DNA of 64,000 nt from Solimonas soli DSM 21787 (GTDB taxonomy: Bacteria; Pseudomonadota; Gammaproteobacteria; Nevskiales; Nevskiaceae), in the NCBI RefSeq assembly GCF_000474945.1, contig NZ_AXDW01000010.1, forward strand, positions 1-64,000, written 5' to 3'. Position 1 is the stretch's first letter. The number at the start of each line of letters is the position of its first letter. Made by a program: the position numbers and the translations under genes. The notes beneath the pieces were generated by a model, which ran no database searches, was not told where the DNA came from, and saw nothing but the letters and a program-made list of their open reading frames with translations. Shown here one piece after another: positions 2,283-29,758 of the stretch.

Positions 2283-2888
2283 ATGGATATTCAACTCTAT
2301 AACAGCTCGAACAAGCTGAACGTTTCGGATGCCGTGTTCGGCGCCGAATACAACGAACCGCTGATCCACCAGGTGGTCACCGCCTACATGGCGGCTGGCC
2401 GTGCCGGTACCAAGGCGCAGCTCGCCAAGGGCGAAGTGCGCGGCGGCGGCAAGAAGCCGTGGAAGCAGAAGGGTACGGGCCGCGCCCGCGCCGGTTCGAT
2501 CCGCTCGCCCCTGTGGCGCGGCGGCGGCGCGACGTTCGCCGCCAGCCCGCGCGATCACTCGCAGAAGGTCAACCGCAAGATGTACCGCGGCGCCATCCGC
2601 TCGATCGTTGCCGAACTCGCCCGCCAGAACCACCTGATCGTCGCCGAGGCCTTCACGGTCGCTGCCGCCAAGACCAAGGGTCTCGTCGAGCAGCTCGCGA
2701 AGCTCGGCTCGGACGACGTGCTGATCGTCACCGGCGAGCTCGACCAGAACCTGTTCCTTTCGGCCCGCAACCTGCCGCATGTGGCGGTTTGCGATGTCGA
2801 GGCCCTCAATCCGGTCACGCTGCTGCGCCACGAGAAGGTGGTCATCACGGCGGACGCGGTCAAGAAGCTGGAGGCGTGGCTGCAATGA
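2283..2888 (+). CDS. rplD: 50S ribosomal protein L4
   Basis: L4 lines the peptide exit tunnel and in E. coli represses its own S10 operon. The 201-residue protein has the basic tunnel loop [19 protein letters not shown] around residues 60-78. The start ATG follows GAGGAAAAACGGCC. Its TGA overlaps the rplW ATG by 3 bases, so the two are probably translationally coupled. Confidence 0.97.
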
Positions 2889-3205
2889 GCACCAAGTTCA
2901 AAACCGCGGCCGATCGCCTGCACCAGATCATCATCGCGCCGGTCGTCTCGGAGAAGAGCACGCGCGTCGCCGAGAAGAACAACCAGGCTGTCTTCAAGGT
3001 CGCTCGCGACGCGCAGAAGCCGGAAATCAAGGAAGCGGTCGAGAAGCTCTTCAACGTCAAGGTCGACGGCGTTCGCACGCTGACCGTGAAGGGCAAGAGC
3101 AAGCGTTTCGGCCGTTTCGAAGGCAAGCGCTCCGACTGGAAGAAGGCGTACGTCACGCTCGCGCAGGGCCAGGAAATCGATTTCCTCGGCGGCGCCTCGG
3201 CCTAA
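2885..3205 (+). CDS. rplW: 50S ribosomal protein L23
   Basis: L23 is at the tunnel exit and docks trigger factor and SRP. The 106-residue product has the family elements [12 protein letters not shown] and [12 protein letters not shown]. The ATG lies inside the rplD stop (AATGAG). A longer reading of this frame from 2459 is antisense-free shadow of rplD and is not part of the gene; L23 homologues start at the residue chosen here. Confidence 0.97.
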
Positions 3206-27344: not shown

Positions 27345-28031
27345 TCAGCGCCGCATGGCGCTGCGCAGCGCGTCCGACACCTGGCCGAGCACGCGTTCGA
27401 TCGCTTCATCGAAATCGCGCGACAGCTGACCGCGCAGTGCCACCAGTTCGCGATCGATCTTCTGCTCGAGCGCCTCGACGCGCGCCTCGAGTGCGGCCAG
27501 CTGCGCCTGCGCGGCGGGCGGCAGCTTCTGCTGCAGCTCGCGGATGCTGTCCTGCAGGGCGACGAGCTCGGCGGCGGCCGGCGCCGTCACGGCGGACTCG
27601 GCGGCCGGCGGTTCTTCATCGAGTCCGGCGGCGGCGAGACTCTTCTCGATCTCCTGTGCGCTGTTCTGCTGCTCGACCGATTCGAGCACGCGCAACAGAT
27701 GCGCGGGCGTCGGCGGCTTCGGCAGCACGTCGACGGCACCCTGTTCGCGCGCTTCGGCGACGAAGGCGTCGCCCTCGTTCGAGGAGCAGATGATGACCGG
27801 GATCGTCGCCGTCTCCGGGTCAAGCTTGAGCTGGCGCAGCGCCTCGAAGCCGTCGACGTCCGGCATGATGTGATCGAGGAAGATCAGATCGGGACGCTGC
27901 TGCTTGAGCGCCAGATACGCCTGCTGGGCGCTGTCGGCGGTATCGACCTTGAACGAGCGGCTCTCGAGATAGCGGCGCAAGGCGAAACGCGCCGACTTGG
28001 AATCGTCGACGACCAGTGCGGTTCTCTGCAT
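27345..28031 (-). CDS. Single-domain response regulator with coiled-coil tail
   Basis: The 228-residue protein has a CheY-like receiver domain (MQRTALVVDDSKSARFAL; phosphoacceptor D in LIFLDHIMPDVDG near residue 52; K in VLPKPPTP near 103). An Ala/Glu/Gln-rich helical tail (about 120-228) ends in a likely coiled coil (LAALEARVEALEQKIDREL). No DNA-binding or enzymatic output domain is visible, so the tail probably mediates protein contacts. The ATG follows GGGGGGA. Its partner kinase is not adjacent. Confidence 0.85.
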   Translation of the reverse strand: MQRTALVVDDSKSARFALRRYLESRSFKVDTADSAQQAYLALKQQRPDLIFLDHIMPDVDGFEALRQLKLDPETATIPVIICSSNEGDAFVAEAREQGAVDVLPKPPTPAHLLRVLESVEQQNSAQEIEKSLAAAGLDEEPPAAESAVTAPAAAELVALQDSIRELQQKLPPAAQAQLAALEARVEALEQKIDRELVALRGQLSRDFDEAIERVLGQVSDALRSAMRR

Positions 28032-28163: not shown

Positions 28164-28213
28164 TTTGCGCTGCGCAAATGCGAACGGCGACGCGGTGAGG
28201 CGTCGCCGTTCGC
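28164..28213. repeat. Two inverted repeats between the response regulator and the micro-ORF unit
   Basis: TTTGCGC-T-GCGCAAA (28164-28178) is a short operator-like palindrome. Just beyond, GCGAACGGCGACGC (28180-28193) pairs with GCGTCGCCGTTCGC (28200-28213) around a 6-nt loop. They lie upstream of the response regulator gene and could be an operator plus a second transcription stop. Confidence 0.6.
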
Positions 28214-28225
28214 AGTGCGCCCCAG

Positions 28226-28260
28226 ACAAAATGAGCGCGGAGCCTTGCGGCGCCGCGCTC
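28226..28260 (-). terminator. Intrinsic terminator of the micro-ORF unit
   Basis: On the minus strand GAGCGCGG (28260-28253) pairs with CCGCGCTC (28240-28233) and is followed by ATTTTGT. It lies 19 nt after the stop codon of the 18-residue peptide, so the peptide has its own transcript end. Confidence 0.75.
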
Positions 28261-28278
28261 AAGTTGCGGGCCTTGAAC

Positions 28279-28335
28279 TTACTTTTTCTTCGCTTTTTTT
28301 GGAGCAGCTTTCTTCGCTTTCTTGGCAGCAGCCAT
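28279..28335 (-). CDS. 18-residue Lys/Ala-rich peptide (micro-ORF)
   Basis: The frame encodes MAAAKKAKKAAPKKAKKK, with 9 Lys and 7 Ala, one Pro and no acidic residue. It has a strong Shine-Dalgarno (GAAAGGAG, 7 nt before the ATG), a TAA stop and its own downstream terminator. The sequence resembles the Ala/Lys/Pro tails of histone H1-like proteins such as AlgP or HctB, so binding to DNA, RNA or ribosomes is a reasonable guess. It is not an edge of a longer ORF. A possible -35 (TTGACC) lies upstream near 28400, but the -10 is poor. It is not recognised as a named family. Confidence 0.65.
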   Translation of the reverse strand: MAAAKKAKKAAPKKAKKK

Positions 28336-28474
28336 GGCACATCTCCTTTCAAGCCAGAAATATGGCGACCCCGTGTGCCCCCAGGCGCACAGTCGGTCAA
28401 CCACGACTGATCGTGGCACTGCCACATTCCCAACACAATAGGTAGTGGTTGATGATCCGACGAACGGTCATTTT

Positions 28475-29758
28475 ATGTCCGCCCCCGGAGGCCTCGTGAG
28501 CGAGCCTTCCCGCACCGCGGGCCTGCGGCCGGCGCACTGGCGCGCGGCACTCGCCGTGCTGCATGCGGTATGGCACGAGCAGCGCGTCGCCGACGCCACG
28601 CTGCAGGCCTGGTTTCGCGAGCATCGCGAGATGGGCGGCCGCGATCGCGCGCAGCTGAGCGGCCTGCTGTACGGCGTGCTGCGCGACGCGATGCGGCTCG
28701 CGCGCATGTGCGGCAGCGCCGCCGATGCAGGGCTGCTGCTCGCCGCTCATGTGCTCGATCGCGGCATCAGCGGCGTCGACGCATTGCGCGCGCTCGCCGG
28801 CGCGACGGCCGATGAAGCGCAGCAGTGCCTCGCCGCTTGCGACGCGACGCGTCTGTCCGACGCCGAGCGCCTCAACGTGCCGGCGCCCGTTTGGGCGGCA
28901 TGGCTCGCGCAGTACGGCGAAGCCGAGGCCGCCGCGCTGGCGCTGGCCTTGAATCGCGAAGCCCCGGTCGATCTGCGCGTCAACACGCTGAAGGCGACGC
29001 GCGACGACGCCATCGCGGCACTGGCCGCGGAGGGCATCGCGGCGGCGCCGACGCCGCACGCGACGACCGGCCTGCGCCTCGCACGGCGCGTCGCGCTGCA
29101 GAACACGCGCGCCTGGAAAGATGGCTGGATCGAGCCGCAGGACGAAGGCAGCCAGCTGCTCGCGGCGCTGGTCGCCGCGCGGGCCGGCGAATGCGTGGTC
29201 GACTACTGCGCCGGCGCCGGCGGCAAGACCCTGGCGCTCGGCGCGGCGATGCGCAATGCCGGCGAACTCTGGGCTCTCGACGTGGCGCCGGCGCGCCTGG
29301 CGCGCCTCGATCCGCGCGCGCGCCGCGCCGGCCTGCGCGAGATCCGAACGCAGGCCCTGCCGGCCACTGACTGGCACGCGCGATACCGCGAACGCTGCGA
29401 CGCGGTGCTGGTCGACGCGCCATGTTCCGGCACCGGCACCTGGCGCCGCAATCCGGAGCTGCGCCTGCGGCCGCTCGATCTCGACACGCTGGCGGCGCAG
29501 CAGCGCCGCATCCTCGAGGCGGCTGCGCCGCTCGTGAAGCCTGGCGGACGTCTCCTGTATTCGACCTGCAGCGTGCTGGCGGCGGAGAACGAGGCGGTGG
29601 TGGAAGCCTTCCTGCGCGAGCACCCGCACTTCGAACCGCAGCCGGCCGGCGAACGCCTGGCGCTGCCGGCGCTCGCATGCGGCGAACCCTGGCTGCGTCT
29701 GCTGCCGCAGCGGCATGGCACCGACGGTTTCTTCGCGGCCTGCCTGCGGCGGCGCTGA
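28475..29758 (+). CDS. RsmB/NOP2-type RNA m5C methyltransferase
   Basis: This SAM-dependent enzyme probably methylates cytosine 967-equivalent of 16S rRNA. The 427-residue product has an N-terminal NusB-like domain (about 15-150) and a Rossmann methyltransferase domain with DYCAGAGGKTLAL. The two family cysteines are present in DAPCSGTG and YSTCSV. The ATG at 28475 is used; a GTG ten codons upstream is also in frame. Usual partners fmt/def are not next to it, so the RsmB assignment within the NOP2 family is probable, not certain. Confidence 0.85.
   Translation: MSAPGGLVSEPSRTAGLRPAHWRAALAVLHAVWHEQRVADATLQAWFREHREMGGRDRAQLSGLLYGVLRDAMRLARMCGSAADAGLLLAAHVLDRGISGVDALRALAGATADEAQQCLAACDATRLSDAERLNVPAPVWAAWLAQYGEAEAAALALALNREAPVDLRVNTLKATRDDAIAALAAEGIAAAPTPHATTGLRLARRVALQNTRAWKDGWIEPQDEGSQLLAALVAARAGECVVDYCAGAGGKTLALGAAMRNAGELWALDVAPARLARLDPRARRAGLREIRTQALPATDWHARYRERCDAVLVDAPCSGTGTWRRNPELRLRPLDLDTLAAQQRRILEAAAPLVKPGGRLLYSTCSVLAAENEAVVEAFLREHPHFEPQPAGERLALPALACGEPWLRLLPQRHGTDGFFAACLRRR

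Follow-up and report, generated by a model that had tools for sequence, protein, structure and literature searches.

The closest described systems to the gene analysed here are bacterial proteins that resemble histone H1. One example is AlgP of Pseudomonas aeruginosa, an H1-like DNA-binding protein that is also found in association with polyphosphate granules (PMC9239181). AlgP is a KPAA-repeat protein and, like the 18-residue peptide considered below, is rich in Lys, Ala and Pro, as is the C-terminus of H1, whose make-up it shares. Another example is provided by the repetitive H1-like proteins of the Chlamydia Hc2 type (here L188, L191, L193, L194 and L068), which carry AAKK/KKAAK repeats and hardly any acidic residues. 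The window, i.e., the whole 64,000-nt stretch of Solimonas soli DSM 21787 that was analysed, contains a gene for a peptide of this composition that stands alone. Whereas the H1-type tail module is already known, its free-standing micro-gene form appears to be undescribed; no paper on such short Lys/Ala genes was found, which is weak evidence given the thin coverage of subscription journals.

Organisation of the Lys/Ala peptide unit

Within 28224-28447, the minus strand presents, in order, a pair of promoter-like hexamers separated by a 17-nt spacer, a stem-loop, a Shine-Dalgarno (SD) sequence whose GGAG lies 7 nt from the ATG, the ORF, and a GC-rich hairpin followed by a T-rich tract (Table 1). 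The 18 codons comprise 9 Lys, 7 Ala, 1 Pro and no Asp or Glu. The earlier note had described this stretch as a self-contained minus-strand unit with a strong SD and an 18-codon ORF, half lysine and free of acidic residues, and direct reading of the sequence shows that description to be accurate; its coordinates, 28226-28440, span the SD, the ORF and the hairpin and extend to the -35-like hexamer. The view of the unit as a self-contained gene likewise holds, a promoter-like element, SD, ORF, terminator and conserved genomic place all being present. No Pfam or NCBIfam model matches the 18-mer and the PDB holds no solved relative, as expected at such a short length.

Table 1. Features of the Lys/Ala peptide unit and its flanking genes (coordinates of the window)
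Feature	Position	Strand	Basis and remarks
Conserved block ACCGTTCGTCGG upstream of the promoter	28457..28468	-	Orthologue sequences
Palindrome CACAA-N4-TTGTG across the -35	28434..28447	.	Alignment; operator role putative
-35-like hexamer TTGTGT	28433..28438	-	Invariant ATTGTG columns in the alignment of 13 loci
-10-like hexamer CACGAT (CACTAT elsewhere)	28410..28415	-	Nearly invariant alignment columns
5'-UTR stem-loop	28364..28402	-	Fold; two-sided changes across 13 loci
Shine-Dalgarno AAAGGAGAT	28341..28349	-	Sequence; GGAG/AGGAG retained in orthologues
18-codon ORF MAAAKKAKKAAPKKAKKK + TAA	28279..28335	-	Sequence (direct reading: ATG at 28335, TAA at 28279-28281); all-synonymous variation in orthologues
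Intrinsic-terminator-like hairpin + T-rich tract	28224..28260	-	Sequence (hairpin GAGCGCGGCGCCGCAAGGCTCCGCGCTC at 28233-28260, then ATTTTGTCT); hairpin in every orthologue
RsmB/RsmF-like rRNA methyltransferase paralogue, divergent; synteny marker	28475..29758	+	PF01189, PF22458; syntenic in relatives; start codon uncertain (28445 or 28475)
CheY-type response regulator, downstream neighbour outside the unit	27345..28031	-	PF00072

Across the 13 orthologous loci described below, most columns of the CAC(T/G)AT -10 element are invariant. The palindrome, of which the window's copy has one mismatch, is a possible operator and, together with the conserved upstream block, suggests a putative regulator of the divergent promoters. 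In the 5'-UTR hairpin, both sides have changed at 7 of the 13 consensus pairs across these loci, with a consensus energy of only -5.5 kcal/mol. A CsrA-type GGA in the loop of this hairpin was set aside, being visible by eye in the second genus only and not in the Solimonas-type loci. The terminator-like element begins 18 nt past the stop codon, and its hairpin occurs in every relative with a different stem sequence each time. At the unit, a simple consensus scan picked up no sigma-70 site and no terminator, because the -10-like CACGAT and the T-tract fall under its thresholds; thus, the evidence for both elements is their cross-species conservation. A search for extra copies of the promoter element returned the same locus only, and no Rfam model scored above its gathering score on the RNA of the unit. 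Past the terminator, a second strong hairpin (GCGAACGGCGACGC...GCGTCGCCGTTCGC) lies at 28180-28213; it has no T-run, and three close relatives keep it.

Conservation among close relatives

The unit's DNA matches other genomes of the same (Solimonas-type) genus, and codon patterns locate the ORF at the rsmB-like locus in 8 of 11 genomes of that genus and in all four of a sister genus. A third genus carries, in the same place, a 12-residue form (MAKKKAKKKKKR) that begins with GTG. The total is 13 syntenic orthologous loci in three genera, with carriers that include Solimonas flava, S. terrae, S. fluminis, Fontimonas thermophila and a Solimonas MAG. Conservation of the frame, set beforehand as the test of the earlier note's proposal, was therefore found, and across three genera. 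In all 13 loci the peptide gene is divergent from the RsmB/F-type methyltransferase paralogue (PF01189), and the genomes concerned carry another RsmB/F homologue elsewhere that is 35-40% identical; about half of the family's genera possess the divergent gene, as a second paralogue. The downstream gene is of the CheY type in most relatives. In the window, about 100 residues at the C-terminus of the receiver encoded there form a helical tail.

Among six close orthologues, ten columns of the ORF vary, every one of them at a third position and every one synonymously, and the sole length difference is one whole codon. The naive chance of ten third-position changes is (1/3)^10, or about 2e-5, a value that is approximate owing to shared ancestry. 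Between the ORFs of genome G005 and Fontimonas, the differences fall at seven third positions and one first position. Variation that is wholly third-position and synonymous indicates that the amino acids are selected, not the RNA alone, and at the level of codon comparison it shows the frame to be under purifying selection. In addition, a backward control pattern had no match in any genome searched. The 13 orthologous loci, the all-synonymous variation and the empty control together point to more than chance; on these comparative grounds, the Lys/Ala ORF is judged to be a real, conserved bacterial gene under selection and not a chance reading frame, and one that is probably unannotated.

Three genomes of the genus (G003, G004 and G009) are missing the peptide, which the group can therefore do without. 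In G003 (L044, ~2745-3000) the promoter block and the terminator are kept, and the ORF between them is instead one of 25 codons, MTADTAATATSGKDKQKEAKSIWLT, unlike the Lys/Ala peptide. This arrangement could be a sign that the RNA matters too.

Similar micro-genes in other phyla

A wide pattern (SD, ATG-Ala, Lys/Ala/Thr codons and KKK-stop; one genome per species) matched at least 118 loci, and in at least 116 of these the match belongs to a free-standing ORF of 12-22 codons that is in frame; at least 79 distinct peptides are present among the look-alikes listed. The upper bound of 22 codons was imposed by the pattern, and a pile-up at that length suggests that longer forms exist. Among the matches listed, most come from MAGs, and the look-alikes lie at differing loci in about a dozen phyla, their hosts including Acidobacteria, Beta-, Gamma-, Alpha- and Deltaproteobacteria, Chloroflexi/Dormibacterota, Omnitrophota, Elusimicrobia, Planctomycetota, Eisenbacteria, Rokubacteria, Armatimonadetes, Bdellovibrionales, Gemmatimonadetes and others. 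These matches show that a scattered class of similar predicted micro-genes exists in many phyla. Presence is sparse, since in a systematic sample of 369 genomes of the taxonomic class only three hold an in-frame tiny Lys/Ala ORF, and the scatter reflects either repeated origin or relocation, the sequences being too short to separate the two. Viral contigs gave only three matches, of which two are poly-Lys ORFs with a different make-up and the third is a protein of greater length.

A terminator-like hairpin follows within 95 nt downstream in 56 of 111 of the look-alikes listed, against 52 of 2212 random windows from the same loci. Within lineages, the look-alike loci are syntenic; clusters 5, 7, 8, 13 and 19 have zero nonsynonymous codons, and the acidobacterial and betaproteobacterial clusters swap Ala, Thr, Ser and Pro for one another but largely retain Lys. 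The neighbours differ from lineage to lineage: an RsmE-type RNA methyltransferase and a CAAX-type protease in Acidobacteria, RecA-like and IMS-family polymerase genes in Chloroflexi, a nucleotidyl transferase in Muproteobacteria and relatives, an EamA transporter in Rhodospirillales, an alpha/beta hydrolase in Deltaproteobacteria and, upstream, a lysA-type decarboxylase in Betaproteobacteria. The betaproteobacterial genes, of 15-20 residues, lie ~340 nt downstream of the lysA-type gene at 12 loci, which include L070, L073, L079, L082 and L096.

The free-codon positions of the look-alikes listed (n=736) hold 322 Lys, 258 Ala, 57 Thr, 37 Pro and 32 Ser, i.e., 706 of the 736, the remainder being 18 Val, 8 Gly, 3 Arg and 1 Glu; there is no Leu, Ile, Phe or Trp. 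In the 464 positions of these look-alikes at which the pattern permitted Asp, Glu or Asn, such a residue occurs once, and the almost exclusive preference for Lys over Arg is notable given the GC-rich genomes. Lineages vary in length and residue order and hold to high Lys, no acidic residues and Ala/Thr/Pro/Ser. This make-up is that of an H1 tail. In line with this, the likeness to an isolated H1-type tail that had been pointed out for the window's peptide is upheld by its Lys/Ala/Pro make-up and near lack of acidic and hydrophobic residues. The same SD and N-terminus also occur on longer genes; some of these specify H1-like proteins of 82-143 residues, and others HU proteins (PF00216) whose N-terminus is an H1-like tail. 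A 447-residue enzyme-like protein (L187 1513) bears an H1-like tail, MATKKTAKKKTAVKKTAVKKTAAKKKTAEKPK, at its N-terminus. The occurrence of one N-terminus on H1-like, HU and enzyme-like proteins indicates that the tail is a portable module, which here stands alone.

Possible roles and comparison with known systems

The reading that we prefer, with a probability of roughly 0.55, is that of an autonomous gene for a Lys/Ala polycation that acts by bulk charge on a polyanion. The locus would be transcribed as a monocistronic RNA of ~180 nt, and its translation would yield an unfolded 18-residue Lys/Ala polycation working by bulk charge, like the tails of histone H1, tailed HU and AlgP-type proteins. 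Such a peptide could bind and neutralise a polyanion without a folded domain, the candidates being polyphosphate and the nucleic acids, DNA or RNA, of nucleoid or ribosome. We infer binding to nucleic acid or polyphosphate; judged by its composition and its relatives, the target is more likely to be nucleic acid or another polyanion than the membrane. Slightly short of an even chance is the broader proposal that many phyla keep autonomous genes for Arg-poor, acid-free Lys/Ala peptides of 12-22 residues, a polyamine-like counter-ion or mini-H1 that would constitute an overlooked factor of the nucleoid, ribosome or polyphosphate. The class would then have been overlooked because gene finders do not see members so short.

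A special case of polyanion binding would be a ribosome-associated micro-protein, in other words a very small basic component of the ribosome, or of its assembly, that binds rRNA. Such a role agrees with the Lys-rich composition and with the presence of an rRNA methyltransferase gene next to the peptide gene in two lineages that are not related (rsmB-like here, RsmE-type in Acidobacteria). It is nonetheless unlikely, as the neighbours in other lineages are unrelated to ribosomes, presence is patchy inside one genus, a peptide of 12 to 22 residues whose order is free does not resemble a specific ribosomal protein, and the PDB search gave no match. A little less likely again is a dual-function or structural small RNA, in which the structured 180-nt transcript would be active and the ORF secondary: compensatory changes preserve the 5'-UTR hairpin and G003 keeps promoter and terminator around another ORF, but ORF variation is wholly synonymous, the Lys/Ala make-up stays while nucleotides change between genera, and Rfam has no match. 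We regard as improbable a dedicated polyphosphate-granule or condensate factor, in effect the AlgP tail minus AlgP. The recurring neighbours include no gene of polyphosphate metabolism and the AlgP precedent (PMC9239181) concerns a tail of 154 residues, even if that precedent and the near-exclusive use of Lys over Arg in GC-rich genomes speak for it.

The earlier note had also raised a leader peptide with lysine codons that sense supply; read in this way, the peptide would control the downstream gene by attenuation. Attenuation leaders do pair a tiny ORF rich in one residue with a terminator, as does the unit, in which Lys takes up half of the codons and the terminator follows directly, and the betaproteobacterial look-alikes lie near lysA, though downstream of it. 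This alternative is not borne out by synteny: the unit is intact where the response-regulator gene beside it is absent (G010) or where the next gene is different (G027), the neighbours in other lineages are unrelated, and no lineage inspected has a lysine gene downstream. Unlike attenuation leaders, moreover, the unit has no conserved downstream operon, and conservation covers the Ala and Pro codons, not Lys alone. A leader peptide is thus excluded as far as sequence can exclude it, and we give it very little chance. Equally slight is the chance of a secreted or membrane-active peptide, whether antimicrobial or toxin, to which the cationic character of the peptide would lend itself; it has no hydrophobic face and no signal sequence, and no exporter or immunity gene adjoins it. 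Type I toxins are hydrophobic and membrane-spanning, whereas the 18-mer has no hydrophobic stretch.

If these micro-genes are indeed translated, then H1-type tails exist in bacteria as independent gene products, repeatedly and at unrelated loci, at sizes far under the usual annotation limit. They would then offer the smallest natural system for the effects of a bare Lys/Ala tail on the nucleoid, the ribosome or the polyphosphate granule, and would demonstrate that selection can maintain charge composition by itself.

Among known systems, the tailed bacterial HU proteins (L190, L192 and L196) share with the peptide gene the SD and an N-terminus of the MATKKKAKKK type, but in them the tail is joined to a folded HU domain (PF00216), which the 18-mer lacks. 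An origin as a detached HU tail was considered and rejected, a tailed-HU query having given no partner in the window's genome. The Lys/Ala/Pro-rich composition of the AlgP/Hc2 class is found in the window's peptide and in at least 116 look-alikes. The peptide does not have the long repetitive tail by which curated models would recognise that class, for it is 18 residues long and matches no model in Pfam or NCBIfam; the repetitive H1-like proteins are ~5 to 8 times longer than the 18-mer, and no family model joins them to it. AlgP, in turn, consists of a 154-residue tail and an N-terminal region, whereas the 18-mer is the entire protein.
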